A stretch of DNA of 64,000 nucleotides from Diospyros lotus (lineage: Eukaryota; Streptophyta; Magnoliopsida; Ericales; Ebenaceae). Positions 20,061 through 53,025 of the stretch are shown piece after piece; position 1 is the stretch's first letter; every line of letters starts with the position of its first letter. Under the pieces are notes generated by a model. The model was not told where the DNA came from. It was given only the letters and a program-made list of their open reading frames with translations, and did no database searches. Both the position numbers and the translations under genes were made by a program. The stretch lies in the NCBI RefSeq assembly GCF_014633365.1, contig NC_068338.1:9806616-9870615 (forward strand), given 5' to 3'.

Positions 20061-21920
20061 TGGTCTTTGCAATGCTCTAGGTACATTTCAGAGGTGCATG
20101 GTAAGTATCTTCTCCGACCATCTTGAGCATTGCATGGAGGTGTTCATGGACGATTTCTCTGTGTATGGGACCTCCTTTGATGACTGCCTAGTTAGTTTGG
20201 GTCGAGTGTTGGAGAGGTGCATTGAAAAGAATCTTGTGCTGAATTATGAAAAATGTCACTTCATGGTAGAGTAGGGGATTGTCTTGGGGCATGTAGTGTC
20301 CAAGAGGGGTATAGAGGTTGATAAGTCTAAGGTCGATATCATTTCTTCTCTGCCTTACCCCACCTCTGTGCGGGAGATTCGTTCTTTTCTTGGACATGCA
20401 GGATTCTACAGGAGGTTTATCCAGGATTTCAGCAAGATTACCCGTCCCTTGTCCAACCTACTCCAAAAGGATGTGGATTTCCAGTTCGACGAACATTGCA
20501 AGCAGGCATTTGATGAGTTGAAGAGACGCCTGACTTCCCCACCTATCATACAGCCACCCAATTGAGACTTGCCATTCGAGCTCATGTGTGATGCTTCCAA
20601 TTATGTAGTTGGTGCCGTTCTTTCACAACGAGTGGAGAAGAAGTCACATGTCATTGCCTATGACTCGCGCACCTTGGATGCTGCTCAAGCAAACTACACC
20701 ACGACAGAGAAGGAGCTTTTAGCTATTGTGTTTGCTTTAGATAAATTTCACTCCTATCTTCTGGGTTCTAATGTTGTCGTGTTTTCTGACCATGCAGCCT
20801 TGAAATACCTATTGAAGAAGCCCGATGCTAAGCCCGATACTTCAGGAGTTCAATGTTGAGATAAAAGATAAGAGTGGGGCCGAGAACCTAGTAGTTGATC
20901 ATTTGAGCAGGGTCCCTCCTTCTTCAAATTCCACAATCATGGGCTCACAGCCTATCCGAGATGATTTTCCAAATGAGTTCCTCTACCACATTCATGGTAT
21001 TGAGCCCTGGTACGCAGATTTGGTAAATTATTTAGTCGCTTCTGAATTACCTGCATATCTTAAGAAAGAGCAATTAAACAAATTTAAGAGTGAGGCTTGG
21101 TATTATGTGTGGGATGATCCCTATTTATGGCGCATGTGCAGTGACCAGGTGATTCGGAGATGTGTCCCTGACCATGAGTTTGCATCTGTCATTAATTTTT
21201 GTCATACACTTGCATGTGGTGGTCATTTCGGTCCCCAACGCACAGCGAGGAAAGTCCTAGATTCTGGATTATATTGGCCATCACTCTTTAGGGATTCATA
21301 TGAGTTTTGCAAGCATTGTTCACGTTGCCAACACACAGGCACTATCTCACATAGGAATGAAATGCCCCAGCAACCCTTGTTGTTTTGTGAGATATTTGAT
21401 GTGTGGGGCATTGACTTCATGGGTCCATTTCCTGTGTCGTTTGATTTTGTGTACATTCTTGTTGCTGTTGATTATGTGTCTAAATGGGTGGAAGCTAAAG
21501 CCACCAGGACTGATGATGCTTCTGTGGTTGCAGATTTTGTTCGTTCTCACATATTTTGCAGGTTTGGCATTCCCCGAGTGATCATCAGTGATCAAGGCTC
21601 TCATTTTTGCAATCGAAAAATGGCGACCCTCCTTCGGAAGTACGGAGTCTTGCATAAAATGGCGACAGCATATCATCCACAGACTAATGGGCAAGCTGAA
21701 GTGTCCAACAGAGAGATCAAGCACATCTTGGAGAAGACAGTCCAGCCCAATAGGAAAGATTGGTCCAAGAGATTGGAGGATGCATTATGGGCTTACCGTA
21801 CCGCATTTAAGACTCCCATTAGCATGTCCCCATACCGGCTTGTTTTTGGCAAAGCATGCCACCTGCGAGTGGAGATAGAGCATAAAGCATATTGGGCGGT
21901 AAAGAACTGCAACATGGATC
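20061..21920 (+). pseudogene. pol: Athila pol remnant: RT, RNase H, integrase core
   Basis: Begins inside RT at the FGLCNA motif and continues with the VFMDDFSVYG catalytic region (about 20142), thumb, RNase H ([37 protein letters not shown]) and integrase (H-C zinc region near 21208-21330, [10 protein letters not shown] near 21405, [11 protein letters not shown] near 21580, [12 protein letters not shown] near 21690). Lesions: TAG at 20272-20274, TGA at 20563-20565 (W to stop), and a ~20-nt deletion with frameshift near 20840. After that the frame is open to the solo LTR at 21921. The 5' LTR, gag, protease and first half of RT are missing. Best match is the Athila lineage, as for 43404-46256. 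Confidence 0.95.
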
Positions 21921-23408
21921 TGTTGGAAATGTATTCCCTAAAGACACGTTTTGTTTAATTTATGGTAATGATGTTTCTTTTATTCAGTTTATGGCACATA
22001 TATTATTTGAATTTAATTGTTGGAAAGGTGTCCATGCTATTAAGTAAGTGATTCATGTGATGGGTCATTCTTCACAGTTAGGCATGAATCATGGGTACTT
22101 AATAAGCAAGAAAATATAACTCTTGATCTTTTGATAGAACTGGGCATTCTATCATGATAAAATCATTGTGCAATAGATCCTAATGGAGGATGGCTTGCCT
22201 TAGCCAGTAAACAATCCGTTTACTCTAATTGTACAAGCGCATTTGGAATGCGTAGAGTGGACCTATGATAGAAGCTAATGACAAAGTACTAATTATCATG
22301 GAGCTAGTCTATCACTGCTACTACGTGGACGAGTACTCTAATACTTGAGTATTAGTTGGTGGTCTAGTGAACCTAGAGCTATATTCTTAGATTCATTGTA
22401 GGTGAGGTCTGTCAGAGATCAATATCCTTTTGAGTTGGGAGTATGGTTTCTAATTAGCTAAGACAGACTAATACAAGATAGTTTCTGTGATTCACCCCCT
22501 TGTGATTGTCCAAGAATAATCGAATAATCCAGGGCCCTGGGAACGTGACTTAAGAGTGTGTGCTTCTGGGTAGCTCCCAGTGATAAGCAAGTACATTCGA
22601 GTAGTCACGGATTATTGGACTAGTGATCTAAGGATGGTAGAAGTCATTTAAAAAGGTGTTAGTACATTATTCCTTTCTAAATGATGGGTGTTACGCAGAG
22701 GGGTATTTTCGTCATTACACTAGTAGGTCAAAGACATGGCATATGCAAAATTATTCGTGGGGTCAGTGTTACCATATGGTGATAGTTGGAACACTTAGAA
22801 TGACAAAATATAGCTACTAGGTAGCAGGGATATTTTGGTCATTTTAGTAGCCGTGAATAATTTGTCTTTTGGTCCCCGGGGTAGCTCGATGTAACTTATG
22901 TATTTTTTAATACATTTGGCTTGTTGGATGAATCACATTGAGAGAGAATTATTTTATTCAGAATGGTCCATTGGGCTAGAATAAAATAATAGTTCATTAG
23001 GGTTTTTAATTAACTAATTGGGCTAACCCAATTAGAAAATTAATTAAAAGATCTTGGCCCATTAGGGTTTGGCCCACTAGGGTTTTAACCCTAGGGTTCT
23101 CCCTATATATATCTCTCTTTAGTTGTTTTTTCATCTAAGTCGTTTTTCATTCTTCTTCATCGAAGAGAGGCCACGAGTTCGATTCATACTCCGGAAGATC
23201 GAAAGGGTGCGTTTGAGTTCTGATGCGACGAAGTCGAAGGCTAGCAGGACAGCCGTCGTCTCCACAACGCGAAGAAGCTCCCATCGCTCCATTCCATCCG
23301 ATAATCCGCCGTAAAAGTAAGTCTCCTAGATTCTTATCAATACGAGGAACGGTTTTGATTTTAAACCGCTTCCGCTGCATGCTTTGTTTCCTCGTTCATG
23401 ATCCTTCA
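21921..23408 (+). mobile_element. solo LTR inserted in the Athila integrase (1,488 bp)
   Basis: Starts TGTTGGAAATG and ends CCTTCA. Flanks are GGATC (21916-21920) and AGATC (23409-23413), a TSD with one mismatch. Removing it brings the integrase codons ...NMD-L-AHAG... together, with the conserved [10 protein letters not shown] block right after. TATA word CTATATATAT near 23104. Copia-like by its ends, but there is no internal domain to prove the lineage, and no genes inside. The strand is inferred from the TATA word only. Confidence 0.85.
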
Positions 23409-23413
23409 AGATC

Positions 23414-23792
23414 TGGCTCACGCAGGTGCCCAAGAAAGCTCCAACTTCAAGAGCTTGAGGAGATTAGGATGGACGCATATGAGAACTCACGCATCTACAA
23501 GGAGAAGACCAAGGCTGTGCATGACAAGCTTATTGTGAGGAAGACATTCGAAGTTGGCTAGAAAGTTCTGCTATACAATTCCCGTCTCAAGTTGATGCCC
23601 GGTAAGTTACGTTCCCATTGGACTGGTCCTTTCATAGTTACTCATGTTTTTCCCTTTGGTGCAGTTGCAATCAAGGACGAGTCCAATGCAAAGCAATTTA
23701 CAGTGAACGGGCAGCAGCTTAAGCCATTCTACGAGAGCTTTCAGGAGCATACTGTGGAGGAGTTGCATCTCCTCAACGTCGCCTACAATTGA
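23414..23792 (+). pseudogene. pol: Athila integrase C-terminus (continuation)
   Basis: Continues the integrase after the solo LTR, with [19 protein letters not shown], then [14 protein letters not shown], then the GPY/F-type block [12 protein letters not shown] and the ending [16 protein letters not shown] at 23559-23561 replaces a codon that is normally Gln. A one-base loss near 23431 puts the first residues out of frame. It stops at 23790-23792, close to the normal Athila pol end. Confidence 0.9.
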
Positions 23793-31089: not shown

Positions 31090-33736
31090 TGTAACACCCC
31101 CTCTCCTAGAACTGCCCGTGAAGAGGTGCTACGGGGAAAATAAAATAAAACTAACTGATAAACTGAAATCTGATACCATAGCTGAACATTCCAATCAACT
31201 AGAATGAAAACTCTGAGTCAATATAGACTGAAAAACACAAACTCTGTCTAAGGGACAATCCCTCAACTGAAATATAAAATAAGATCTAAACTGAGAAGAC
31301 ACTATAAAACTTAACAGACTCCCAGACATCTTTTATCTTGAGCGGCTCCACGTACACACACTACTGAACACTGCTGCTAGGCCCCACATCTGATACTCCC
31401 CTGCTAGAACCTAGAGGGGTGAAGAGTACAAGGTGAGCTATAAAAGCTCAGCAAGTAATAAGCTAGAAAGAATATTGAAGCTGAATCGAAGAATATCGAT
31501 ATTGATAAATAATTGACTGAACTTGTACTGTATAATCACTGTCTGATTGCATTCATAAAAATGTAATGCACATAAACTGTAAACTAAATACAGGTATGCA
31601 ACTTTGGCTCATAGGCCCACATAATCTGATTATACATACCTGTCTGAACTGAAACCTGCATACATAAAAACTGTAAGCACATACTGTGGGCAAAGCCCCT
31701 AGCCCCCTGGTTGCCACCAGGCGAGCAACTCATAAACTGAGCTGAAATTGAAACTGATGGGATCCCCGCGGACAAGCCGCCTGGCGCGCATAATGCAATG
31801 CAATGCTCACATAAATGCTAACACATGATATGTAGTGCTCCATATAAAGTCATGCTCAATGCTCATATCAGAATGTATGCACATAATCTCACAAAATAAT
31901 GCTGGTCATGCCATAATTAACTGCTAAACATGGTATATGATTTTTTACCAGCTATATTGAGATACAAAGATTTTGAAATTTCTGAGTATAGGCATGGCAT
32001 ATTGGATTTTATCATATCTTGGCATAATAATTCAATATTTGAATAATTGAATATTTATATTAAATTTAAGACTTGAATCAAGAATTTATTGGAAGCCATT
32101 CGGATGCCATATGATACTATTTGGATGACTGAGGAAGCAAAAGGAAGCAATTTGAATGAAAAAGTAGCCCATTCGAATGAAAAAAACGGATTTCAGCAAG
32201 CTCATTCGAATGGCAGAAAACTCATTCGAATGACAAAGGCTCATTCGAATGACTGAGGGCTTATTCGAATGACAGATGATATATAACAAAGGCTATTCGG
32301 ATCTGATCAGGGACTCATTTGAATGACTCACAAATTCATTCGAATGAATTTTGAAAATTTCTAACTTTTGAACTGGCAAAAAACGACTCATTCGAATGCT
32401 ACAGTACCCTTATTCGAATGAATTTTGGGGTACTCACGGGTCATTCGAATGACAAAGAGACTCATTCGAATGCTAGACTATACAAAGCAACAGCTTACTC
32501 ACATCTTCAAGGACTCATTCAAATGACAAGAAAACTCATTCGAATGACAGACCAAAAACACATACGAATGACTGATACATTATAAGGGAAAAGCTTACGA
32601 TAACACTGAAAACTCATTCGGATGCCTCAAAACTTATTCGAATGACACAAGACTCATTCGAATGACTGGAATCTTATCAGACATAAAACTCACGATAACA
32701 GAGATGATATCTTGAATTACAACTCAACATTACTACACCATTCCAAAAGAAATCTTGGGAAAACAATCCCAATTGATATAAAATAATCTCAAGATGTATT
32801 AAATCAATCGCTTATGAAAGAAAACGCTGAAAGGGATTATGCATAGCTTAACATAACTCACTGGTTAATGATATACCGCATGAAAATATGTATATATACA
32901 TGAACATTCTGATTGATTAAACTGGAAACCCAAAACAAGAGTCTTGGTATTCTAAGATCACTGCTAATATTATTTGAAGATCATATTTAAAAGATTTACT
33001 ATAAAGAATCACACATACTTCCTCATGCACTCACTGCTCTACGCATACATATATATATATACACTGTAACTGATATAAATCTAAGAACTCAATGAAGCGC
33101 TCGAATAAACCGAGAATGAACTAACTTGAATCTGTAATGAAAGGAATTACAGATAGGATACTTGCCTTTCAATCGTTTTTGATCGATTCTAATGACTTCA
33201 CGAGAACCTTCTATGCAACACTTTGAAACTGTGGCTCATTCTTGGCTTTTCTGTTCTTCATCCATGCGGCGTGAGAAGCTCCTTGCTATGACTATAAATA
33301 TATAGAAAAAAAAGAAGCCCTAAAGCCCACTTCTCCTTCTCCTAATGCAAATAGGAGACTTCTCAATCCCAATCCTATTCACGTATGGATATCACAATCC
33401 TCCTTTCATATGGATTCTTAATCCCTTAATCATAATAACTCCATTTAATAATTAAATGCTAATATCAAATCCTTAAATGACCAACATGACCTTGCATTTA
33501 ATTTTCATAATAAATAAATGCCTTTAAATGCTATTTTCTCAATTAAAAATTACTAGATTGCCACATTAGCAAATCCCTTTAACTCCAACATTAAATAGAA
33601 ATAAATGTTATAAAGTCCTTCAAAATCTCTAAATTGCCACATTAAATAATTAATTGAAAAAATCTCTTAATCAATACTTCAATAATTAATTAAATCATTC
33701 TTGAATAAATACTGGGCCCTCTAATGGGTCGTTACA
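31090..33736 (-). repeat. 3' LTR of the Tekay element (2,647 bp)
   Basis: Complete, with TG...CA ends. About 300 bp longer than the other LTR because it keeps the block 32010-32380, which is missing there. On the minus strand a TATA-like CTATATATTTATAG lies at about 33291-33304. It carries a CATTCGAATG array. No genes. Confidence 0.95.
32095..32665. repeat. array of TCGA-centred palindromes (CATTCGAATG), ~21 copies
   Basis: CTCATTCGAATGAC and variants repeat about every 20-25 bp, with larger gaps at 32270-32330, 32470-32510 and 32570-32610. The 10-bp core is a perfect palindrome. The sister LTR has only about 13 copies (51598-51950), so copy number has changed since insertion. Confidence 0.95.
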
Positions 33737-37827: not shown

Positions 37828-37834
37828 TGTAACA
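37828..37834 (-). repeat. tip of the Tekay 5' LTR left by the Athila insertion
   Basis: TGTAACA. The last five bases TAACA are repeated at 50686-50690 as the Athila target duplication, and the LTR continues from 50691. The Athila element thus landed within 7 bp of the LTR/internal junction. Confidence 0.95.
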
Positions 37835-39423
37835 TGGCTGCACTCCTCACCCTACAATTTAAATAACCTTAATCAGTTTGGATGTTCAGTGTTGAAATGG
37901 TGAGGAGGTTTAAACTCACCAGTGTGTGAGTGTAGTTGTAGCACAAATATAAATTTCGGACAAGTCCGGGTCGATTCACTGGGAGGTTTATTTAACAAAA
38001 GAATTGTTCATTCAGGTTGATTTATCCAAAGAGAGCTAAGTTTTCTTGATTGTGAAAAGGTTTTTTTTTTTGGAATATTAAAAAGGTCTTGGGTTGGGGC
38101 GAGTTCAGAACCAATGCCTAATAAATCTCTTATAGCAATTTAAACAGCAACATTAATCTGAAATAAACAGAGGATCATTTGGTAGTTATAATTCAAGATA
38201 CGAGTGATTCTCAGCTAAGCAACCCTCATACATGATATGATGGTTCTAGGTTAAGATGTCACTGTAAATTGTATTATACTACAGACTATGATTTGATTGT
38301 CTGAGCTTGGGTATATCTCATCTCCAATTCTAGCAACTCTCATACATGACATGAGAGTTCTAAGTTAGGATGATTACCCAATCCAAACTCACAAAACCAT
38401 TTACACACTCAACTCAAGTTTAACTTAGATAAATCTTGCATTCATCGAGGTTTGGCTTATCTTGAGATTCAAGAACATTGGACACTGTCCTCGCCTTAAC
38501 CCAAGATTAGATTTAGCTACTCATTTCCATTTAAAAGTTAATTGACAATAATTTAAATTGCGTAATTTAAATAACAGAATTTAAATGACAAGAATTAAAA
38601 TAACATAAACTAACCGGCCATTTAAGCGGTGGATAATTAAAAGACAAGAATTAAAATTGCAAAAATTTAAAGGCAGTAATTAACCGGCCATTTAGGCGGT
38701 GGATAATAAAGTAATAATAAATAACATAAGAATTTAAATAAAGAAATAAAGGAAGTAATATTACAAAAGAAAACAAGAGAGGGAATAAGAGCAATTCTCT
38801 AAGAGAAATTCTAAGAACAAAACTAAACTTTGATTCAAGTAATAACAACTCCCTTACAAATGCACCAAAGTGAGCTATTTATAGCTCATAAGATGCAATA
38901 CAAGCCACACAATTATTCAACAAAACATTCACCTAACTAGTGGAAGAAAATTAGGTAAAAGACAAAAAATACAAAAGACTTTGTGTGGTGGACTTCTCAT
39001 AAGAATACAAAAGACTTTAGGTGGTGGACTTCTCATAAGAATACAAAAGACTTTAGGTGGTAAATCACTTATAAAAAAAAATTACAAAACAAAGAAAAGT
39101 CTTCTACAAATTGGGCTTTGTTGGGCCTTTGATTGGTTTTGGGCCTTTGGTTGATCTTGGGCATTTGGTTGGATTCCATTTGATAGTTGGGCCAAGTGCA
39201 CTTGAAACATCCTCTAGCCTCCATAATTGGCCTTTGAATTTGAGCAATAAAAAATGGGTAATCCAATGTCTTCGATTACGCCCCTAATTAATTTTAGAAG
39301 TCAACTTCCTTGCTTCATCCTGAAATAATATGTAATACGAATAATTATTTATTTTAAGCATATTTATAAACTCAAAATGGGGATATAGTTCATTAAGATT
39401 TAGGAAATATTAACCCCTCATCA
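37835..39423 (-). repeat. 3' LTR of the Athila element
   Basis: Plus-strand ends TGGCTGCACTCC and CCCTCATCA. It contains the TATA region GAGCTATTTATAGCTC near 38873 and three copies of a ~33-bp unit (AATACAAAAGACTTT...GGTGG) at about 38968-39062. No genes. Confidence 0.95.
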
Positions 39424-39437
39424 CACCCCCCAACTTG
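39424..39437 (-). promoter_or_regulatory. polypurine tract of the Athila element
   Basis: Minus strand CAAGTTGGGGGGTG, ending at the LTR start. Two similar tracts occur further inside at 40867-40881 and 43086-43097. Confidence 0.9.
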
Positions 39438-41029
39438 AATATTGCTAGTCCCTTAGCAATCGGATTATACACCAGCCATGGTTTAATCGCAATACTTGCA
39501 TGAATATAAAAATTTCAAATTCGAAACTAAAATGCGTAGAGTAGAACATTCAAAATAAGTCGAACATTCAAAATTAGATTTATGGTTAAAGGTCATACAA
39601 TCTTAGAAATGACAATCAGGATAATCAATACACAGATTTACTCCCTCGAAGTTTTGACTTAAAACCTTACCATAGATTTTCCCTCCAATAAAAACGATTC
39701 TTTAGGTGTACACACAAAGGGTGCACCGTTATAAGAGTAAATGTAAAACAAGTTCAAACTCGGTGTCATCCCAAATACAAAGAACGTATTTTCATGAAAG
39801 AACGGGGAAATTAACATAGCTTCATGATTGGAATAATGCCATAGATAAATAACTTTTGAATTTAAACATAATTCCTTGCTCCAAATTCGAATCATGAGAT
39901 CACATGATTTATAGCATCAAGAGGGACCAAACTGGGTTGTAATGGGGCTATGAGGTTAATACGGGTTGTCAAAGAAAATGGTAAAGTGTGCAAATGGTGT
40001 GTTAGGTTTTTTTTTTTTTTTACACTAATCTCAAACTGGATATAATGTTTTCTTCAGCATTTGTTTTGAAACACTTATTCTGAATAACTAAGAGAACTTC
40101 CCCTTTTTTTTTCTTTTTCTTTTTTTTTATATGAAAATACTGAGATAAATTGATTCCTAGAAACACACCAGATTGGACAAACTTCATATGGTTACAGGTT
40201 TAGACGAAGGTAAGGAAACAAATTGTGCTAAGAATAGCTCAAATGGGCTAGCAAGTGAGGCTAATGTAAAGAAAGAAAAAGGTTAATAGGCCCAAATTGA
40301 AAGTAATTGATCCCCCTATCATACTTCTACAAAACAATGTTACTCAGTCAACTAATTCAGAGTTTGAAACTAGCCAAATTCATCCGCTATCATAAGACAT
40401 TCAAAGCAAATTGATGTTTTGAAGCTATTGAAAAGATGAGATAAACAATAAAGCATATTTAGAGTAAGTGTTATTTCACTCAGAAGTAACGATTATTAGG
40501 CTCAAACACTCACTTGGGTAATAGTCTCTACTTCTGTTGAGCGATCATGCAGTGTGCTAATCAGCTAATTACCATTGCCTTTGACTTTATGACCGATAAA
40601 CCAATTTCTAATTATTGAACACCCGATGCATGCAAATCATCTATTCTAATTCCATACATATACGTTTTCAAATAAGAAATTAATGCATTCATGATTCATA
40701 TTGCAAATTCAACTGGATATCAGTGTATAATTTCAAAGCTTTAGGGATAGCATTATTTAAAGCACACACATTCTTTTTCTTCTTTTTTTTAATTCACACA
40801 AAACTACAAGCATGCAATTGCAAATTCACAGTTAAACATAGACCAGATAATTCATAAATATACCTTACTCCCCCCAACTTGAATTGCAGTAATAAAATAG
40901 GGTTGTTAGGAATACCTGTAACTCCATAAGTCCATAAATTTACTATGAACTGCTAAAACTCAAACAAACAAATGAGCATACCATATATATATATTTTTAT
41001 ATTTTCACACCAAAATAAAAATTTCATGC
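39438..41029 (-). other. Athila 3' non-coding region
   Basis: AT-rich with long T-runs (about 40006-40020, 40104-40130, 40783-40790) and no recognisable protein; the 78-codon frame at 39659-39895 has no match I know. A second polypurine-like tract followed by ACTTGAATTGCAG lies at 40867. Probably the remains of the env-like region plus 3' untranslated sequence. Confidence 0.6.
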
Positions 41030-41238
41030 AAGTCATAAGATAAACAAAATGCGTCTCAAGAGTACAAAGTACTCCTTACTCAGCCATCTTATCATAGACT
41101 CGCCTAACAACATTCCACAGTTTTTTTTTTTTTTTTATTTTAAGAACACAAGAAAAGAAATTTTGTACAAGTCATAGGAGATGCGTCTCAAGAGTACAAA
41201 AAGTACTCCTTACTCAGCCATCTTATCATAGACTTGCC
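41030..41238 (-). repeat. two direct copies of a ~90-bp unit next to the LOG gene
   Basis: Copies at about 41030-41108 and 41165-41240 share ATGCGTCTCAAGAGTACAAA, GTACTCCTTACTCAGCC and ATCTTATCATAGACT. A third, diverged relative lies inside the 144-codon ORF at about 42220-42290 (ATCTCAAGAGTC, GACTCCTTACTCAGTCCATC). The two copies therefore look like duplicated pieces of that ORF's 3' end, placed after the LOG stop codon. Confidence 0.8.
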
Positions 41239-41937
41239 TTACAGGGATAATTCTAAATTAATCGAACCTTTTTGCTGCTTGTTTTTGATTGCCTTAGACC
41301 AATCTATCTGAGGCTCATAAGGATCGTGCTGTGGAACATAAGTATGTAATTTCTCTAGCAGCTCCTCAATGGTGGATGCAGAAATAAGAATCTTTCTTGC
41401 TGAAGGAGAAATGAACTGTTGGTCCACAGCCTGATCAATGAAAGAGAGCAACCCATCGAAAAAATGGTTAACATTTAAAAGTCCAATGGGTTTGGTATGC
41501 AGATCGCTCTTGGCCCAAGAGATTATACAGAAGATTTCTTCAAGTGTACCAAAACCTCTTGGTAAAGCGATGAAAGCGTCTTATTGATAAATTTTACAAG
41601 CCATGCGCTTAGACATAGAAGTCGTTTCTACAAGTTGACCGCGTGTAATCCCAGAAATACGTGGTTCAGCCAAAGGGATTGGCATTACACCTACCACATA
41701 TGATTTTCCAAAAAGTGCAGCTTGTGAAACATAACCATTCAACCCACGACTTCCCCCTCCATATACCAAATTAATCTTTTTCTCTCCTAATTTTTGGCCT
41801 AGTTCGCTTGCTGCAAGTGCGTAACAAATATCACTCTCAAGTTGAGAGCCACAAAGTACACATATGGTTTTGATTCGACGAACTAACTGGCCTTCCATGT
41901 TTGTTTCTTTTGTATGCCCTGGAAAGAGGTTTCGCAA
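41239..41937 (-). pseudogene. LOG: captured LONELY GUY (LOG) cytokinin-activating gene, intronless, one stop
   Basis: LOG enzymes cut ribose-5-phosphate from cytokinin ribotides, releasing active cytokinin bases. The frame reads from TICVLCGS through INLVYGGGSRGLNGYVSQAA, the M-x-x-R block (MSKRM), DAFIALPRGFGTLEE, ISWAKSDLHTKPIGLLNV, LLSFIDQAV, FISPSARKILISA to a C-terminus of normal length. From the likely native Met (41898) it would be 219 codons, like known LOGs (about 210-220). Two faults: a TAA at 41581-41583 just before DAFIAL, and Arg for the first Gly of the PGGxGTxxE motif. Plant LOG genes have several introns; none are here, so it came from a spliced mRNA. It sits in element sense, in the env position. 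Confidence 0.93.
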
Positions 41938-42176
41938 TCAAAAGTAGCTATACAACAATTCAACAAGAAATAAATACAAACAAAAATCATGCGTATGTAC
42001 AAGTAGTTATGATTGTGGCTCACATCTTCCTCTGGTTTTACGTCCAGAAATAGCTTAAACACTTTCTATGAAGCGAGGATAAGCTTCCCATCCAATTTTC
42101 TTATAGATTGGCAAATAGGGTCGTTTTTAGTTAGATTCCCAAGACTATAGCGTTGGTGGTCACTTATGAACTGGGT
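41938..42176 (-). other. spacer between LOG and the upstream ORF
   Basis: 240 bp with no recognised motif. It may contain the LOG 5' untranslated sequence and the 3' part of the other captured transcript. There is no polypurine tract or LTR here, so both genes belong to one element. Confidence 0.5.
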
Positions 42177-42611
42177 TCATAAAGCAAGAAATTCTCTTTG
42201 CACTATTCCACATGGATGCATCTCAAGAGTCAATCGGATATCATCCAATGACTCCTTACTCAGTCCATCCTTTATGAAACTAATTTTATCTTCTCGATTT
42301 ACGGACGTAAACCCCACAGATTTGCATCGAGTGTTACAGGTCCAACAAGCACACTTGTGACAACCATTCACTCTTTTAGCTCTTTGTTTCTTCGCAAAAC
42401 TACTCTTCCCTAAGCTCGGGAAGTGCTTAAAACTAGGTGAAGTTTCGCTAGCTAATCGAACTTTTGCTTCGATCAGCCAACGAATATCTTCAGGGATGTT
42501 ATTACGCATCAAAAGCCTAAGTCTTTCACACCTAGCAGCATAATTTTTTTTTAAATCATTCATTGGGAGAGATGGATAGTACTTGTGAATTTTTGATAGT
42601 TGAAGATCCAT
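42177..42611 (-). CDS. unrecognised 144-codon ORF, possibly a second captured gene
   Basis: An intact frame from ATG at 42611 to a stop at 42177, in element sense just upstream of LOG. Its protein is basic, soluble and non-repetitive, with no signal peptide or membrane span. The N-terminal half is helical in style (LKKNYAARCERLRLLMRNN, IPEDIRWLIEAKVRLASE). A central cysteine cluster C-x2-C-x-C-x2-C-x3-C (CHKCACWTCNTRC) could bind zinc. I do not recognise the family. It does not resemble gag, pol or a membrane envelope protein. Its balanced composition suggests a real former gene; a host origin is inferred only from its position beside LOG. Confidence 0.55.
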   Translation of the reverse strand: MDLQLSKIHKYYPSLPMNDLKKNYAARCERLRLLMRNNIPEDIRWLIEAKVRLASETSPSFKHFPSLGKSSFAKKQRAKRVNGCHKCACWTCNTRCKSVGFTSVNREDKISFIKDGLSKESLDDIRLTLEMHPCGIVQREFLAL

Positions 42612-43403
42612 ATTTTTTTTTTTTTAAAGAAAACTCTAATACAAAGAAAGTAAAGAATTATAAACTTTACAAAAGGGATGAGAGTACCTGATCGGAGAAT
42701 AACACAAAGGAGAGAAGATTGAGCTCAAGAAGGGTGGCTTGCCTCATATAGATTTGGAGTCTCTTTTAGAGCAATGGGCATCACTATTCGACACTTGGCT
42801 CGAGGCATGCCATAATTGCACCGTCAGGCTTGGTGTCGTTTAGCGTCTCATTTTTCAACATTTGGCAGTGTGCCTCTTTCTTTATAGGGCAGTGTGATTG
42901 CATTGCCCGAGAAGAATGGCTACCACCAGCGTCAATTCTGTCTCTCGAAATTTTTTTTTTTTTTGTTTTTTTTTTAGGGGCCTAATAAAATCATATATAC
43001 CACACAAAATAATATTATCGAGTCAAACAAAATTATTTGCACAATAGATCAAATTCAAACACCAATAAATGACTAAGTACACCTTACCCCCCAACTTAAA
43101 TTGCGCATTGTCCTCAATCGGCAATAAAAGAATAGAAAATAGGCATACCTAGCGGTCTTCAATGCATGAACTCGTATGCAAAATTTTTATTTAGACTGCA
43201 CACAGAGAAACACTATTGAAGTAATGCAGAAAAGAAACAAATTTTTTTATATTCTTTTTATTTATTTATTTAATTTTTTTTTATTATTATTATTATATAT
43301 ATATTTTATTATTTTTATATTCGAATTCCAAAGACATCCATTTAACCTAAATGGAAAGGTGGTCTTTTAACGTCAGATTCCCAGACGAATGTGTTCCTAA
43401 AGG
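42612..43403 (-). other. non-coding region between pol and the captured genes
   Basis: T-rich low-complexity DNA at 42955-42976 and 43235-43320, and a third polypurine-like tract (minus strand AAGTTGGGGGGT, 43086-43097) followed by AAATTGCGCATTGTCCTCAA. No coding sequence. The tract may be an internal plus-strand primer, or the scar of an earlier 3' end. Confidence 0.6.
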
Positions 43404-46256
43404 TCACTTAACCACTGACGGTGGATCACCCAACTCCACCATCTCGTCATTTCCTTCAACAAGATCTTTCTCAGCTATGCCTAGATATGGTTTCAGCCTT
43501 TGACCATTCACTTTAAAACATTGTCCAGACTCTTTGATTTCAATTTCTATTGCCCCATATTCTGATATGGTCTTGATTGTATAGGGTCCTGTCCATTTTG
43601 ATCTCAACTTCCCTGGGAACGAATAAAGCCTTGAGTTGTAGAGAAGCACCTGCTGACCAACATGAAATTTTTTTCTGTTGATATGTTGGTCATGCAACTT
43701 TTTCATATGCAACTTAGACAATTTGGCATTTTCAAATGCCTCATCCCTAAGTTCTTCAAGTTCATTAAGTTGCAATTTCCTATTGAGGCTCACTTCTGTT
43801 GATTCCTCATTAATCTTCCTAATGGCCCAGTAGGCTTTGTGCTCTATTTCAACTGGCAGATGACATGGCTTGCCATATACCAACCTATAGGGAGACATGC
43901 CTAGACTGGTCTTGTATGCAGTTCTATAGGCCCAAAGTGCATCAATCAACCTCAAGGACCAATCCTTGTGGTTAGAATTGACTATTTTCTCTAAAATCCT
44001 TTTTATCTCCCTATTGGCCAATTCAGCTTGGCCATTGGTTTGAGGGTGATATGGGGTTGCAACCTTGTGGACTACTCCATATTTTCTCATTAATTCAGCC
44101 ACTGGTTTGTTGCAGAAATGAGAACCTCCATCACTTATGATGACCCTAGGCATTCCAAATCTACTAAAAATATTTTCTTTCAAAAACTTCATTACAACCC
44201 GATGATCATTTGTTCTTGTTGGGATTGCTTCTACCCACTTGGACACATAGTCAACAGCTAACAAGATGTACTCGTGTCCACCTGAATTAACAAATGGTCC
44301 CGTGAAGTCTATTCCCCAACAATCAAAAATTTTTAACACTTGAATGGGTTGCAAGGGCATCATATTCCTCTTGGTTAGGCTTCCTAGCCTTTGGCATCTA
44401 TCACATGAGCTACAAAACTGATGCACATCTCTAAACATGGTAGGCAAAAAGAATCCACTTTGTAAGATCTTGGCCAATGTTTTTCTTGTGGAGAAATGAC
44501 CTCCACAAGCAAGAGTATGACAAAAATTCAAAACACTCTGTTGCTCATGCTCAGGGATGCACCTTCTTAAAATTTGGTCAGCACAATACTTATACAAGTA
44601 AGGATCATCCCAAAAATAAGTCCTAACCTTCCAAAAGAATTTTTGTTTATCTAGCTTGGTCCAATGATTTGGAATTAGACCGGTGGCTAGATAGTTGGCC
44701 AAATCTGCATACCATGGTGTAACAGAGGTTGAGGTATCATTGATAAGGAAGAACTGTTCATCTGGAAAGATGTCCCTGATTGGTTCCTTGTCTAGATTAA
44801 GGTCTTGGCATGGAAGTCTAGACAAATGGTCTGCCACCACATTTTCTACTCCCTTTTTATCTTTGATTTCTATGTTGAATTCTTGGAGTAACAAAATCCA
44901 CCTAATAAGACGCGGTTTGGCATCTTGTTTGGTGAGCAAGTATTTCAAAGCAGCATGGTCAGTGAAAACAATGACCAATGACCCCACCAGATATGATCTG
45001 AACTTCTCTAATGCAAAAACTATTGCCAATAGTTCCTTCTCAGTTGTTGTGTAATTTTTTTGGGCTTCATTGAGGGTTTTACTGGCATAGTAGATGACAT
45101 AAGGTTTTTTATCTTTTCTTTGCCCTAGGACTGCTCCTACAGCATAATCACTTGCATCACACATGAGTTCAAAGGGCAATAACCAATCTGGTGGTTGAAT
45201 AATGGGGGCTAAGATGAGAGCATTTCTTAACCTCTCAAAAGAAGTTTGACAAGATGATGTCCACTCAAATGGGACATTCTGGGAGAGCGAATTACACAGA
45301 GGTCGGGCTATGCTGCTAAAAGATGCTATGAATCTCCTATAGAACCCAGCATGCCCCAGGAAATACCTGATGTCCTTAACACTCTTAGGGACTGGTAATT
45401 TTTGGATGGCTTCTATTTTGGCTTTGTCCACCTCCATTCCCTTAGCAGAGACAATATGCCCTAGGACTATACCTTGTTTGACCATGAAATGACATTTTTC
45501 CCAGTTAAGCACAAGGTGGGTTTCTTCACAACGAGCTAGAACTCTCTCTAAATTCTCTAAACATGCCTCAAAACTAGCTCCATAGACAGAGAAATCATCT
45601 ATAAAAACTTCCACAATGTGTTCTGTCATCTCACTAAAAATACTTATCATACACCTTTGAAAGGTGGCAAGGGCATTGCATAGTCCAAAAGGCATAAGTC
45701 TATAGGCAAATGTCCCAAATGGACATGTGAAAGTGGTCTTTTCCTGGTCCTCTAGGGCAATGTCAATCTGGTTATATCCTGAATAACCATCAAGGAAACA
45801 ATAGAATGCTTGCCCAACTATTCTTTCAAGGACTTGGTCCAAGAATGGCAATGGAAAATGGTATTTTCTAGTCATTGCATTGAGTTTTCTGTAATCGATG
45901 CACACTCTCCATCCGGTTTGGATGCGAGTAGGGATCAATTCATTCTTTTCATTTCTCACCACTGTGACTCCAGACCTTTTTGGGACCACTTGAGTGGGGC
46001 TGACCCACTTTGAATCCAAGATGGGGTATATAATACCCGCATCCAGCAACTTTAGCACTTCTTTCCTAACCACCTCTTTCATGTAAGGATTGAGTCTCCT
46101 CTGCATTTTCCTAACAGGTTTAGCATCCTCCTCTAGAAATATCCTATGAGTGCAAGTCAAAGGGCTAATTCCATGCAAGTCTAAGATGGTCCAACCTAAG
46201 GCTTTTTTATGAGCTCTCAGAATGTTTATCAGTTGAATTTCCTGTTGGGATGTCAA
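43404..46256 (-). CDS. pol: Athila pol: RT, RNase H, integrase (950 codons, open)
   Basis: Copies element RNA to DNA and inserts it. In order: RT with CIDYRKLN (~120), MPFGLCNA (~190) and the catalytic FIDDFSVYG (~217); RNase H with [12 protein letters not shown] (~366), [15 protein letters not shown] and TDHAALKYL; integrase zinc region H-C-C (HTLACGGHF...CSSCDRC, ~580-625); core residues in WGIDFTGPF (~653), [10 protein letters not shown] (~720) and NREIKRILE (~760); C-terminal WTGPYTI block. All catalytic residues are present. The first codon listed is a TTG inside a longer polyprotein: a one-base loss upstream near 46265 breaks the link to protease, so this part would not be made normally. 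The lineage is Athila by near-identical wording to 20061-21920. Confidence 0.95.
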
Positions 46257-46270
46257 ACTTGAAGAGATGA

Positions 46271-47434
46271 CTACGGGAGTGTGTTCTCATCACCTAGAAA
46301 TGCATATTTTAACTCACTTGGCAAAGGTTTCATTTCAGGTGTGGGCGAGGTGTTATCAGATTGTGACTCCTCATTGTTCAGAAAACCCAATGGTTCTGAT
46401 TTGGGAATCCATTGAGCCACAGGCATTGCTTCTTGCTCCCTAGTGTTCTCCAATTCTTTTAACTCTCTCTTTTCTTGATCTTCTTCCATAGATTTGTTCA
46501 AAAATTCTTTTGCAAAATAGTCCTCAGCTAATGTTTGAACCAAATCTACTTCCTCCACCTCATTCTCAGCTATGTGTTGTTTGGAAACTCTAAAGATATT
46601 CATCTCTACAGTCATGTTTCCAAATGATAACTTAAGTATTCCATTCCTACAATTAATTATGGCATTTGAAGTTGCTAGGAATGGTCTACCAAGAATGACT
46701 GGAACAGGGGGTTGAGGGCCTTGATGGGGTTGTGTGTCCAAGACTATAAAATCAACAGGGAAGTAAAATTTATCCACCTGCACTAATACATCCTCCACTA
46801 TCCCCCTAGGGATTTTGATTGACCTATCAGCAAGCTGTAGGGTAACTCTTGTTGGCTTGAGTTCTCCTAAGCCCAATTGCTGATATACATTATAAGGAAG
46901 CAAGTTGACACTTGCTCCTAAATCTAAGAGTGCTTGGTCCACCCTCTGGCTTCCAATTATGCAAGAAATGGTTGGGCTACCAGGGTCTTTGTACTTATGA
47001 GGTGTTTTAAGTTGCAGGATGGAACTCACCTGTTCAGTTAAGAATGCTTTCTCATGGATGTTGATCTTTCTTTTAACAGTACACAAGTCTTTTAAAAATT
47101 TTGCATAAGATGGTGTCTGTTTGATTGCATCAAGGAGAGGAATGTTAATCCTCACCTGCTTGAACACTTCATAAATATCAGCATTTTGTTTTTCCCTCTT
47201 TGTTTGAGTAAGTCTTTGAGGGAATGGTGGTGTAGGGTTGCTCTTGAATTCTTCCACCTTATTTTTTTCTTTAGCTTCCTTTTTTTTGTTTTCAAGTTTT
47301 TCCTCCAAAGTTGGAGCATTGTCATTTTTTATATTTTCATTTTGTTCTTCTTCTTGTGCATTAGGTTGGCTTGTCCTAGTATCATCTGGTTTGTCAATTA
47401 TTTTTCCATTCCTAAGGACAGTAACTGCTTGCAC
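46271..47434 (-). pseudogene. pol: Athila gag C-terminus and aspartic protease
   Basis: A 387-codon open piece of the polyprotein. The first ~90 codons are Glu/Lys-rich and disordered. Protease follows with DLGAS at ~171 (the active-site triad in its Athila form), ADRSIKIPRGIVEDV, and the flap/C-part VILGRPFLATSNAII. It is entered after an in-frame TAG (47435-47437) and ends at a TAG near 46271 created by a one-base loss; one base later the frame runs into RT. The polyprotein would be cut by this protease in the virus-like particle. Confidence 0.85.
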
Positions 47435-48019
47435 CTACTCATAATTATTGTTCCCACTATTTGATGATTCCACTTGATTTATTTGCCTCACGAGGTTGGG
47501 ATTTGGTTGAGAAGGGAATTTCCCAAGTTCTCTCACAGTCAAAGTTTGAGTTAGCTTGGTTAGCTGACTCCTCATATCCTCAATTGCCCTATTTGTTTGC
47601 TCCTGGAATTTTGCTACCTGAGCATTGTTCCCCATCTACCCTTGCATAAATTGTTGTAGAGTATCCTCTAGGGATCTCTTATGCGGTGGCTGATATGAGC
47701 CAGATGGTCCTTGGTTAGGCTGGTAGGGCTGTGGCTGAGGTTGTGGCTGTGGTTGTGAGGGAAATGGTTGGTGTGGCTGAGATGCTGAGTCATTTCTCCA
47801 AGAGAAATTTTGGTGGTTCCTAGAATTTGGATGATAGGTGTTTGAGTTTGGGTTGTACCCTTGATAATTTCCACCCTGGTTTTGGTTTTGGTATATCCTA
47901 CCCTCTGTTTGCCTTAGTTGTGAGTTTGAAGTTTGGCCATACAGCACTTCTTTGAAAGCAGGGAGAGTTGGACACTCCTCTGTTCTATGGCTATTGGCTT
48001 CACACACTACACAATGCAC
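47435..48019 (-). pseudogene. gag: Athila gag nucleocapsid part, interrupted by TAG
   Basis: The first 127 codons carry a CCHC knuckle CVVCEANSHRTEEC (C-x2-C-x4-H-x4-C), the RNA-binding nucleocapsid signature, then a Gln/Pro/Asn-rich linker (HNHSHN-like in another frame). A TAG at 47636-47638 is followed in frame by 66 codons with a coiled-coil-like AKFQEQTNRAIEDMRSQL, then another TAG. The two TAGs are in the same frame as protease, so readthrough would give one protein. Confidence 0.85.
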
Positions 48020-48021
48020 CT

Positions 48022-48982
48022 CTACCTCATTGACAGCCTTCTTTTTTTTTTCATCTCCAATTCTTCCATTTTCTTTGTCAACAGAGCTAATCTAGCACTG
48101 ATGTCATCAGTTTCATTTAAATGGAGTTTTCCCTTTGGTTGTGGATTGTATTGGTCTCTCAAATCTCCCATGGTTAATGGTCCAACTTCCCAACTTCTAG
48201 AGTTTTCAGCTACATGGTCAAAGTATGCAACAGCCTCTTCAGGAGTTTTTTCATAAAAATCACCATTACACATGGTGGACACCAGCATTTTCAAATTAGG
48301 AGTTAAGGCATTAAAAAAGAAACTAACTACCCGCCATTGCTCAAAGGCATGGTGTGGGCAAGAATGCAAGAGGTCCTTGAAACGTTCCCAAGTTTGAGCA
48401 AATGTTTCATTTGGTTTACAAATGAAATTCATCATTTGCCTTTGGAGTGATGTTGTTCTATTAGCTGGGAAGTATTTTTTTTATAAATTTTGTTTGCATC
48501 TCCCTCCAAGTTCCTATTGATCTAGGCTCCAGAGTCCCTAACCACATTTTTGCTTTATCCTTGAGTGAGAATGGGAAGAGCTTTAGTCTAACAGTGTCCT
48601 CATGAATATTTTGATCCCCACAAGTACCACATACCTCTTCAAAATCCCTCATGTGTGTATATGGATTTTTAGAATCCATACCATGAAATGTGGGGAGCAT
48701 TTGTATGGTACCTGGTTTAAGGACAAATCGATGATGGTTTATTGGTAGGATTATGCAAGAGGGAGTGGTTTGCCTTGGAGGATGCAAATAATCCCTGAGG
48801 GGTTTAATCTCATCACCATCCAAGGGATCATGTCCTCCATGATCACTCCCGTGAGCAGATAGGTTTTCAATTTGTTGAGACATTATGGATTGTAAAAGCG
48901 ATATTTCAGTCTCTGATAAAGAATCTATAGAATGGTTTGACTCAGTTTGATGGCTTAAGATTCTACCAGATCTAAGTCTCAT
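48022..48982 (-). pseudogene. gag: Athila gag capsid part, two homopolymer frameshifts
   Basis: Starts at ATG 48982 (MRLRSGRIL). Contains MDSKNPYTHMRDFEEVC and LRLKLFPFSLKDKAKMWL, then KFIKK...YFPANRTTSLQRQMMNF, FAQTWERFKDLLHSCPHH and EEAVAYFDHVAENSRSW, the usual Athila capsid signature. The frame breaks at a run of eight A (about 48475-48482) and again at a run of ten A (about 48040-48049). One base removed from the first run, and a similar change in the second, would join the pieces. Such breaks are common mutations but also common sequencing errors. Confidence 0.9.
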
Positions 48983-49074
48983 GCAATTTGAATAATATGC
49001 AAACAGCTAAGAAAGAAAAAAAAAATATTAAGAACAAAGTTACCCGTGGAGTGAATTTTTTCTTCTGTTGCACC
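48983..49074 (-). other. short untranslated leader of the Athila element
   Basis: About 90 bp between the gag start and the primer site, including an A-rich run (49016-49030). Packaging signals would be expected here but none can be named. Confidence 0.6.
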
Positions 49075-49092
49075 TCCCCGGCAACGGCGCCA
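49075..49092 (-). promoter_or_regulatory. primer-binding site, tRNA-Asp
   Basis: The plus strand shows TCCCCGGCAACGGCGCCA, equal to the 3' end of plant tRNA-Asp(GUC), so the minus strand is fully complementary to it over 18 bases. It lies 5 bases from the LTR end at 49098. Use of tRNA-Asp is known for Athila elements. Confidence 0.95.
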
Positions 49093-49097
49093 AAATT

Positions 49098-50685
49098 TGG
49101 CTGCACTCCTCACCCTACAATTTAAATAACCTTAATCAATTTGGATGTTCAGTGTTGAAATGGTGAGGAGGTTTAAACTCACCAGTGTGTGAGTGTAGTT
49201 GTAGCACAAATATAAATTCCGGACAAGTCCGGGTCGATTCACTGGGAGGTTTATTTAACAAAAGAATTGTTCATTCGGGTTGATTTATCCAAAGAGAGCT
49301 AAGTTTTCTTGATTGTAAAAAGGTTTTTTTTTTTGGAATATTAAAAAGGTCTTGGGTTGGGGCGAGTTCAGAACCAATGCCTAATAAATCTCTTATAGCA
49401 ATTTAAACAGCAACATTAATCTGAAATAAACAGAGGATCATTTGGTAGTTATAATTCAAGATACGAGTGATTCTCAGCTAAGCAACCCTCATACATGATA
49501 TGATGGTTCTAGGTTAAGATGTCACTGTAAATTGTATTATACTACAGACTATGATTTGATTATCTGAGCTTGGGTATATCTCATCTCCAATTCTAGCAAC
49601 TCTCATACATGACATGAGAGTTCTAAGTTAGGATGATTACCCAATCCAAACTCACAAAACCATTTACACACTCAACTCAAGTTTAACTCAGATAAATCTT
49701 GCATTCATCGAGGTTTGGCTTATCTTAGATTCAAGAACATTGGACACTGTCCTCGCCTTAACTCAAGATTAGATTTAGCTACTCATTTCCATTTAAAAGT
49801 TAATTGACAATAATTTAAATTGCATAATTTAAATAACAGAATTTAAATGACAAGAATTAAAATAACATAAACTAACCGGCCATTTAAGCGGTGGATAATT
49901 AAAAGACAAGAATTATAATTGCAAAAATTTAAAGGCAGTAATTAACCGGCCATTTAGGCGGTGGATAATAAAGTAATAATAAATAACATAAGAATTTAAA
50001 TAAAGAAATAAAGGAAGTAAGATTACAAAAGAAAACAAGAGAGAGAATAAGAGCAATTCTCTAAGAGAAATTCTAAGAACAAAACTAAACTTTGATTCAA
50101 GTAATAACAACTCCCTTACAAATGCACCAAAGTGAGCTATTTATAGCTCACAAGATGCAATACAAGCCACACAATTATTCAACAAAACATTCACCTAACT
50201 AGTGGAAGAAAATTAGGTAAAAGACAAAAAATACAAAAGACTTTGTGTGGTGGACTTCTCATAAGAATACAAAAGACTTTAGGTGGTGGACTTCTCATAA
50301 GAATACAAAAGACTTTTGGTGGTAAATCACTTATAAAAAAAAATTACAAAACAAAGAAAAGTCTTCTACAAATTGGACTTTGTTGGGCCTTTGATTGGTT
50401 TTGGGTCTTTGGTTGATCTTGGGCCTTTGGTTGGATTCCATTTGATAGTTGGGCCAAGTGCACTTGAAACATCCTCTAGCCTCCATAATTGGCCTTTGAA
50501 TTTGAGCAATAAAAAATGGGTAATCCAATGTCTTCGATTATGCCCCTAATTAATTGTAGAAGTCAACTTCCTTGCTTCATCCTGAAATAATATGTAATAC
50601 GAATAATTATTTATTTTAAGCATATTTATAAAGTTAAAATGGGGATATAGTTCATTAAGATTTAGGAAATATTAACCCCTCATCA
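49098..50685 (-). repeat. 5' LTR of the Athila element
   Basis: 1,588 bp, same ends as the 3' LTR. The promoter is probably at GAGCTATTTATAGCTC (50134-50149), which on the minus strand gives CTATAAAT. It would drive gag-pol and, in one transcript, the captured genes. About 20 substitutions and one 1-bp indel separate it from the 3' LTR. Confidence 0.95.
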
Positions 50686-50690
50686 TAACA

Positions 50691-53025
50691 CCCCCTCTCC
50701 TAGAACTGCCCGTGAAGAGGTGCTACGGGGAAAATAAAATAAAACTAACTGATAAACTGAAATCTGATACCATAGCTAAACATTCCAATCAACTGAAATG
50801 AAAACTCTGAGTCAATACAGACTGAAAAGCACAAACTCTGTCTAAGGGACAATCCCTCAACTGAAATATAAAATAAGATCTAAACTGAGAAGAACAGACT
50901 CCCAGACATTTTTTATCTTGAGCGGCTCCACGTACACACACTACTGAACACTGCTGCTAGGCCCCACATCTGATACTCCCCTGCTATAACCTGGAGGGGT
51001 GAAGAGTACAAGGTGAGTTACAAAAGCTCAGCAAGTAATAAGCTAGAAAGAATATTGAAGCTGAATCGAAGAATATCGATACTGATAAATAACTGACTGA
51101 ACTTGTACTGTATAATCACTGTCTGATTGCATTCATAAAAATGTAATGCACTTAAACTGTAAACTAAATGCAGGTGTGCAACTTTGGCTCATAGGCCCAC
51201 ATAATCTGATAATGCATACCTGTCTGAACTGAAACCTGCATACATAAAAACTGTAAGCACATACTGTGGGCAAAGCCCCTAGCCCCCTGGTTGCCACCAG
51301 GCGAGCAACTCATAAACTGAGCTGAAACTGAAACTGATGGGATCCCCGTGGACAAGCTGCCTGGCGCGCATAATGCAATGCAATGCTCACATAAATGCTA
51401 GCACACGATATGTAGTGCTCCATATAAAGTCATACTCAATGCTCATATCAGAATGTATGCACATAATCTCACAAAATAATGTTGGTCATGCCATAATTAA
51501 CTGTTAAACATGGTATATGATTTTTTACCAGCTATATTGAGATACAAAGATTTTGAAATTTCTGAGTATAGGCATGGCATATTGGAATGCTACAGCGACT
51601 CATTCGAATGCCAAAAAGCGACTCATTCGAATGCTACAGTACCCTTATTCGAATGAATTTTAGGGTACTCACGGGTCATTCGAATGACAAAGAGACTCAT
51701 TCGAATGCTAAACTATACAAAGCAACAACTTACTCACATCTTCAAGGACTCATTCGAATGACAAGAAAACTCATTCGAATGATAGACCAAAAACACATAC
51801 GAATGATATGATATCACATGACTTATTCGAATGACAAGGGACTCATTCGAATGACTGATACATTATAAGGGAAAAGCTTACGATAACACTGAAAACTCAT
51901 TCGGATGCCTCAAAACTTATTCGAATGACACAAGACTCATTCGAATGACTAGAATCTTATCAGTCATAAAACTCACGATAATAGAGATGATATCTTGAAT
52001 TACAACTCAACATTACTACACCATTCCAAAAGAAATCTTGGGAAAACAATCCCAATTGATTTAAAATAATCTCAAGATGTATTAAATCAATCGCTTATGA
52101 AAGAAAATGCTGAAAGAGATTATGCATAGCTTAACATAACTCACTGGTTAATGATATACTGCATGAAAATATGTATATATACATGAACATTCTGATTGAT
52201 TAAACTGGAAACCCAAAACAAGAGTCTTGGTATTCTGAGATCACTGCTAATATGATTTGAAGATCATATTTAAAAGATTTACTATAAAGAATCACACATA
52301 CTTCCTCATGCACTCACTGCTCTACACATACATATATATATATATATACACTGTAACTGATATAAATCTAAGAACTCAATGAAGCGCTCGAATAAACCGA
52401 GAATGAACTAACTTGAATCTGTAATGAAAGGAATTACAGATAGGATACTTGCCTTTCAATCGTTTTTGATCGATTCTAATGACTTCACGAGAGCCTTCTA
52501 TGCAACACTTTGAAACTGTGGCTCATTCTTGGCTTCTCTATTCTTCATCCATGCGGCGTGAGAAGCTCCTTGCTATGACTATATATATAGAGAAAAAAAA
52601 AGCATCCCTAAAGCCCACTTCTCCTTCTCCTAATGCAAATAGGAGACTTCTCAATCCCAATCCTATTCACGTATGGATATCACAATCCTCCTTTCATATG
52701 GATTCTTAATCCCTTAATCACAATAACTCCATTTAATAATTAAATGCTAATATCAAATCCTTAAATGACCAACTTGTCCTTGCATTTAATTTTCATAATA
52801 AATAAATGCCTTTAAATGCTATTTTCTCAATTAAAAATTACTAGATTGCCACATTAGCAAATCCCTTTAACTCCAACATTAAATAGAAATAAATGCTATT
52901 CTTTTCCCTCAAAATCACTAAATTGCCACATTAAATAATTAATTGGCAAAATCGCTTAATCAATACTTCAATAATTAATTAAATCATTCTTGAATAAATA
53001 CTGGGCCCTCTAATGGGTCGTTACA
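50691..53025 (-). repeat. Tekay 5' LTR, main part
   Basis: Continues from the 7-bp tip at 37828. Net LTR length is 2,342 bp versus 2,647 for the 3' LTR. It lacks the block corresponding to 32010-32380, lacks ~14 bp near 50890, and has a small extra block with CGAATG repeats near 51800-51850. Other differences are about 2-3% by eye, more than between the Athila LTRs, consistent with the nesting order. Confidence 0.9.
51598..51950. repeat. CATTCGAATG palindrome array, 5' LTR copy (~13 units)
   Basis: Same motif as 32095-32665 with fewer units. The first two units (51598-51625) join across the deletion point. Confidence 0.95.

Follow-up and report, generated by a model that had tools for sequence, protein, structure and literature searches.

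LOG-type and carlavirus-type genes in the env slot of a decayed Ty3/gypsy retrotransposon of Diospyros lotus, and their relatives among flowering plants

How does a plant gene of the LONELY GUY (LOG) family come to lie, free of introns, inside a retrotransposon, and what could such a gene do for the element that carries it? The question is raised by a stretch of 64,000 nucleotides from contig NC_068338.1 of Diospyros lotus, referred to here as the window, whose numbering is used throughout. An original prediction, made from the letters of the sequence, held that an Athila element had taken up a spliced LOG mRNA in place of its env-like gene.

The window element and the genes of its env slot

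The window holds a decayed Ty3/gypsy LTR retrotransposon that reads on the minus strand. Self-comparison pairs its 3' LTR (37835..39423, minus strand, in element sense) with its 5' LTR (49098..50685, minus strand) at 98.7% identity, with 20 mismatches and one gap over 1589 columns; the LTRs have TG...CA ends, and inspection of their flanks shows the target-site duplication TAACA on both sides, at 37830..37834 on the left and 50686..50690 on the right. The primer binding site (49081..49092, minus strand) matches at 12 of 12 positions a string taken as the complement of tRNA-Asp, and a polypurine tract (PPT), placed by motif position at 39424..39436 (minus strand), adjoins the 3' LTR. The internal region, also on the minus strand, comprises a broken gag region of three open frames (47636..49006), the first of which matches Retrotrans_gag (PF03732), an aspartic protease ORF (46271..47434; PF13650), and pol (43404..46286), in which the Pfam domains of reverse transcriptase, RNase H and integrase stand in the Ty3/gypsy order. 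The LTR pair, the target-site duplication, the primer binding site, the polypurine tract and this domain order are thus all present. Membership of the Athila lineage is likely, as the element fits features of that lineage; PF03078, presumably the ATHILA family, is absent from the Pfam matches of the window element.

The element was inserted in another repeat, a second copy of which reads through the insertion site; the repeat pair 31092-33736 / 50686-53025 represents this recipient sequence. Other repeats lie nearby. Positions 1-125 are a fragment of the same LTR in opposite orientation (97.6% identity), so that another copy stands at the window edge, and 20728-23671 on the plus strand is a second Ty3/gypsy pol region, to which three pieces of the pol of a further element (L021, described below) match with DNA identities of 64-71%. 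An Rfam match to snoR71 at 48344-48443 on the plus strand (42.2 bits, cut-off 40) lies antisense within gag and is perhaps due to chance.

Between pol and the 3' LTR lies the gene for a LOG-type phosphoribohydrolase (41239..41898, minus strand), identified by Pfam, by a structure-database match and by alignment to a relative. Its coding sequence runs from 41898 to 41242 in element sense, with the stop at 41241-41239, as a single frame without introns that ends in the C-terminal residues LELSL. The Lysine_decarbox/LOG profile PF03641 matches with an E-value of 1.4e-30 (106.6 bits against a cut-off of 27), and the best solved relatives are Arabidopsis At2g37210 (2e-51) and At5g11950 (2.8e-45). 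An intact relative from Diospyros lotus (P0001) aligns with residues 1-219 at 85.8%; the closest LOG that bears an organism name, at 86%, belongs to Diospyros lotus. The intron-less LOG frame that had been proposed within 41239-41937, in element sense and inside an LTR element with target-site duplications, is therefore borne out by the profile match, by the 219 aligned residues of P0001 and by the pairing of the LTRs.

The same prediction took the window copy to be dead on account of one TAA and one Gly-to-Arg change, and both lesions are seen: the in-frame TAA is at 41583-41581 (codon 106), and Gly114 is replaced by Arg in the PGGxGTxxE motif, which together with Arg98 we take to have a catalytic role. 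The window LOG lacks the intact form of this motif and, because of the substitution and the in-frame stop, is to be regarded as a broken derivative of the LOG family; as read from its sequence, this copy is dead. Arg114 is common to a database relative that is 89% identical to the window LOG (P0003), so the change is maybe older than the window copy.

Directly upstream of LOG, between it and pol, lies a second cargo gene, which encodes a carlavirus-type cysteine-rich nucleic-acid-binding protein (Viral_NABP; 42066..42611, minus strand; PF05515, E 1.2e-7). It too is broken, by a premature TGA at 42179-42177 (codon 145 of 181). A protein search with this virus-type protein returned 350 relatives, and the organism names among the 120 best listed are all plants. 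PF05515 was found in 18 of 19 aligned members and PF01623 in 16, and the members share a basic run followed by conserved cysteines; the assignment to the carlavirus-type family is based on these profiles, above their cut-offs, and on the cysteines. No solved structure matches the virus-type profile at E 1, and the predicted model of the protein is poor (pLDDT 56). The relative P0147 represents a 90% cluster of 566 virus-type retrotransposon proteins, larger than every LOG cluster among those listed.

Both ORFs of the env slot thus match Pfam families other than env-like ones. The proposal that LOG replaces env stands in so far as LOG does lie in that slot; it had missed the carlavirus-type protein, which shares the slot. 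Two further stretches on the minus strand are likely remnants of the virus-type gene: one at 41181..41243, which abuts the LOG stop and is 93.7% identical to the second, at 41049..41109, identified by self-comparison and alignment. The first has a local alignment score of 39 with the window virus-type gene, where none of 300 shuffles exceeds 33, and a weaker score of 37 with that of L021 (shuffle maximum 35). PPT-like motifs occur on either flank of the cargo, between pol and the virus-type gene at 43087..43100 (one mismatch) and downstream of the cargo at 40870..40883, both on the minus strand; with the tract beside the LTR they make three matches in the window, a number reached in 0 of 100 shuffles.

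Relatives of the cargo genes and the origin of the LOG cargo

Relatives of the window LOG were collected by two protein searches. A single-sequence search found 420 proteins, of which the best 120 were listed, and a profile search, built from 25 mostly tail-bearing rows, gave 7978 matches at E 1e-30 among 7999 candidates scored, of which again the best 120 were listed; matches beyond these will include ordinary LOGs. The two listings together comprise 211 LOG rows. Removal of 18 rows for length left 193 rows of 190-245 residues, which with the window LOG and the two Arabidopsis chains formed a tree of 196 rows. A single split divides it into 172 element-type and 24 other LOGs (SH-aLRT 99), and a careful tree of 106 rows likewise shows a single split of 82 against 24 (100/98); the set of 24 was taken from the 106-row tree, so that the 196-row tree tests the added rows only. 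In a tree of 38 rows with bacterial outgroups, the 20 element-type rows all group together in one clade (100/99), whose junction with plant LOGs has 95/84; the branch that sets off the plant LOGs has 92/91, which is under the strict mark. Of four element-type LOGs scanned, all four score above the cut-off of TIGR00730 and all four fall short of that of NF058542, the equivalog model for bacterial cytokinin LOGs. Element-type LOGs share family, catalytic motif and near full-length alignment with the plant LOGs At2g37210 and At5g11950; they differ from them in forming a separate clade, in being intron-less in the window, and in the basic-LxLxL tail that many of them bear.

The window LOG is one leaf of an element-type group that extends across rosids and asterids. 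The group includes 13 named taxa (Diospyros lotus, Xanthoceras sorbifolium, Melia azedarach, Rehmannia glutinosa, Paulownia fortunei, three Orobanche, Reevesia pubescens, Diplodiscus trichospermus and three Populus), and the orders looked up for five of them are Ericales, Lamiales, Sapindales, Malvales and Malpighiales. Copy numbers can be high, with a 90% LOG cluster of 328 members represented by a sequence from Orobanche minor and at least 28 LOG loci over 13 chromosome names in Reevesia. Direct evidence of residence in an element comes from the window copy alone, and for the other relatives, most of which are seen without their genomic context, the links are indirect. In Xanthoceras, two LOG models include a peptide that resembles the protease ORF of the element (two-sequence comparison, E 3e-10 and 7e-10), and two consecutive Xanthoceras locus tags are a LOG (ACOSQ2_032186) and a virus-type gene (ACOSQ2_032187). 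When 25 LOG and 44 virus-type rows from non-NCBI contigs of at least 2 kb were compared, two LOG/virus-type pairs agreed in source and size of contig, where jitter gives an expected 0.08 and reaches two in 14 of 5000 sets; such agreement is not proof of one contig. Viral contigs, scanned with P0001, with the LOG profile and with that of the virus-type protein, yielded no plant element; the 20 LOG loci from one of these scans are weak matches of 27-47% identity to parts of the query.

A scan of genome contigs gave one relative, L021, out of 418 pattern matches. This contig (DAIEQH010000041.1) is labelled as a Candidatus Nomurabacteria metagenome-assembled genome (MAG), and because its pol and virus-type gene match those of plant elements, it is apparently a plant retrotransposon contig that contaminates a bacterial assembly. 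Its pol shares 65% protein identity with the window pol and is followed by a virus-type gene that is 67% identical to that of the window over 180 codons and 71-77% identical to database relatives; dN/dS between the window and L021 genes is 0.28 over the 180 codons, by one method. No LOG was found within 983 bases after the L021 virus-type gene. Two distant elements therefore have the virus-type gene in a corresponding position, with LOG in one of them, and the wider lineage can apparently do without LOG. Similarity between the window and L021 runs about 100 bases past the virus-type stop and ends at 41969, 70 bases 5' of the LOG ATG; the stretch upstream of LOG at 41899..41968 (minus strand) is not common to L021 in their alignment. 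The shared segment (42065-41969 on the minus strand, about 2348-2446 in L021) is conserved though apparently non-coding, and is possibly an RNA element.

Since 172 rows over rosids and asterids split once from other LOGs, one ancient capture is likely, and on these trees it is the simplest reading; horizontal spread among plants could also give a single split. The donor may well have been a spliced plant LOG transcript, taken up once, anciently, through a template switch next to the virus-type gene, a route that fits the virus-type remnants at the LOG stop and the PPT-like motifs that flank the cargo. After capture, LOG would have passed on mainly by descent with the element. A spliced-mRNA donor, as first suggested, remains plausible for an intron-less gene that is sister to plant LOGs (95/84), though no donor gene came to light, and the capture itself is to be placed earlier than this element.

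The account that we favour, and consider probable on the sequence evidence as a whole, is that of a decayed Ty3/gypsy element, likely Athila, whose env slot holds two broken genes, one virus-type and one an intron-less LOG, and whose intact relatives encode LOGs that would release cytokinin and likely dock TOPLESS by way of an EAR-type tail.

Conservation of the enzyme and of its C-terminal tail

Intact sister copies, whose existence had been no more than suggested, are numerous. The residues P-G-G-x-G-T-x-x-E and Arg98 are kept in 133 of 171 relatives, and the other 38 lack one or more of the catalytic residues that were checked. The mean number of changes is 13.7 for the core and 5.9 for ten columns of the active site and GGG, a mean that 7 of 10000 random draws matched or undercut; conservation is biased upward here by the preference of predicted-protein databases for intact frames. 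The least changed columns include Glu121 (3 changes), Thr118 (0) and Gly117 (2), while Arg98 (16) and Pro113 (14) are no better conserved than the core. Intact element LOGs are thus predicted to be able to release active cytokinin.

A rather unlikely alternative, though the strongest of those considered, is that LOG was captured once and has since ridden as a passive passenger on successful elements, bringing them no benefit and decaying copy by copy. The dead window copy and the 38 defective relatives agree with it, many of the losses being Pro-to-Leu/Ser or Arg-to-Cys/His/Gln changes such as methylated-CpG decay may produce, and so does L021, with its 983 LOG-free bases after the virus-type gene. 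What speaks against it is that, in a group spread over rosid and asterid orders, most catalytic columns change at well under the core rate, which is hard to maintain without selection, and that the leucine spacing of the C-terminal tail is kept as well.

In its typical form, this C-terminus consists of a Trp, a linker, a basic patch and LxLxL, the pattern of the EAR motif, which the LELSL of the window LOG fits. The LxLxL-type EAR motif is described, in passages of two papers, as a plant repression motif that acts through corepressors (PMC9956375; PMC6283911). A strict terminal LxLxL is present in 114 of 171 relatives and in 0 of 22 other LOG database rows. By listing, it is found in 30 of 81 rows from the single-sequence search and in 84 of 90 seen only in the profile search, of which the former is the less biased, the profile having been built largely from tail-bearing rows and so favouring them. 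A basic patch of three or more K/R directly precedes LxLxL in 110 of the 114 strict rows, and shuffled tails yield the LxLxL pattern in 157 of 22800 cases. The LxLxL leucines show 7.3 changes, about one third of the 21.5 at intervening sites, with 20.6 in the linker. Non-strict tails comprise 32 rows with an Orobanche pattern (xDxFLSL), 5 with KKRRLA (Xanthoceras), 5 that are relaxed, and 15 that are other or truncated. AlphaFold2 models of 25 rows have a pLDDT of 82 with low confidence in the tail, as for a disordered tail. From this pattern, docking of the tail to the TOPLESS corepressor is predicted and seems likely.

It would be possible to go further and regard the enzyme fold as a mere scaffold, with selection acting on a nuclear EAR tail that represses host defence or silencing of the element and with little role for cytokinin. 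The conserved leucines and adjoining basic patch, absent from all 22 other LOG rows, are what such moonlighting predicts; a scaffold would not need Glu121, Thr118 and Gly117, which are among the least changed columns, and the Orobanche-pattern and Xanthoceras rows keep the enzyme body without the strict tail, so that we judge this unlikely. Lower still in our estimation, and improbable, is that EAR-tailed LOGs form an ordinary plant LOG subfamily that has been overlooked and from which some copies entered elements: LOGL10 is the annotation of several of them in Diospyros and Populus, and most rows come without visible context, but the dispersed Reevesia loci and the clusters of hundreds of members misfit a small gene family. 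A chromosomal LOG pseudogene caught between elements would be expected to look similar from one window alone, but we set this hardly credible reading aside on LTR pairing and phylogeny, since the gene is enclosed by paired LTRs with a matching target-site duplication, it is closest to the high-copy LOG group and not to the plant LOG group, and Xanthoceras LOG models bear an element-like peptide.

A proposed role for the cargo and its relation to known elements

Under the favoured account of an element-borne, cytokinin-releasing LOG with a TOPLESS-docking tail, LOG is predicted to be expressed from a spliced env-like RNA, for which the sequence TTTCCAG/GG at 41919/41918, 20 bases 5' of the LOG ATG, offers a candidate splice acceptor. 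Release of cytokinin would favour dividing or meristematic cells, a route for a retrotransposon to the germ line, and the tail would recruit the corepressor. For the virus-type protein, a role as a silencing suppressor or a transcription factor is predicted, as in carlaviruses; viral proteins of the Viral_NABP family are reported, in part of one source, to be silencing suppressors, and one of them a transcription factor that causes hyperplasia (PMC12172455). The element protein resembles carlavirus cysteine-rich proteins in PF05515, PF01623, the basic run and the cysteines, a likeness of sequence, and differs from them in being encoded by a retrotransposon. Taken together, these predictions lead to a bolder proposal, which we advance tentatively and as doubtful: an ancient retrotransposon lineage of flowering plants may carry a two-gene cassette for host reprogramming, in which a protein of virus type, a silencing suppressor or a transcription factor, would act with a TOPLESS-tethered cytokinin-activating enzyme to push the cell to division and leave it open to transposition.

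LOG as cargo of Gypsy elements is already known, and the earlier suggestion that it would be a new kind of cargo if other copies keep it open does not hold for LOG cargo in itself: passages of a 2022 paper report that Gypsy elements of Citrus sinensis and C. clementina and, without a filter, of Populus trichocarpa contain the YgdH domain, which that paper assigns to the LONELY GUY family, in agreement, as stated there, with Steinbauerova et al. 2011 (PMC9289625). These elements share with ours a LOG-family domain inside a plant Gypsy element and probably belong to the same family. Where those passages give the presence of the domain, the present analysis adds the virus-type partner, the EAR tail, the single split and the members from Ericales, Lamiales and Malvales, and what is new relative to the known LOG cargo is accordingly the partner, the tail, the likely age and the spread. 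Among the open-licence papers listed in literature searches, we recognised none that describes a virus-type partner or an EAR tail for LOG-bearing elements; Steinbauerova et al. 2011 may hold more.

The Athila-type env-like elements described in parts of a 2020 review (PMC7264820) resemble the window element in having gag-pol and a sense ORF between pol and the 3' LTR; the window slot differs in being occupied by a cysteine-rich protein of virus type and by an enzyme whose relatives are known, and by no recognised env-like protein. As far as those parts of the review go, antisense additional ORFs have no clear database similarity and the role of env-like ORFs is controversial (PMC7264820). The Gypsy elements of Phalaenopsis that encode an AlkB m6A demethylase likewise represent a plant Gypsy lineage with an enzyme fixed as an additional ORF; according to passages of PMC9289625, theirs is another enzyme, in two Phalaenopsis species, with activity shown in vitro, whereas the LOG considered here is known from sequence.

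If intact copies work, a mobile element would itself make an active plant hormone, providing a testable case of a transposon that steers host development. For two of the additional ORFs found in plant Gypsy elements, both in the present one, sources also become recognisable, namely a plant enzyme and an RNA-virus-type protein. In addition, counts of LOG genes in plant genomes may be inflated by element copies, as the LOGL10 entries of Diospyros lotus, Populus trichocarpa and P. nigra (P0001, P0259 and P0302) are LOGs of the element type.
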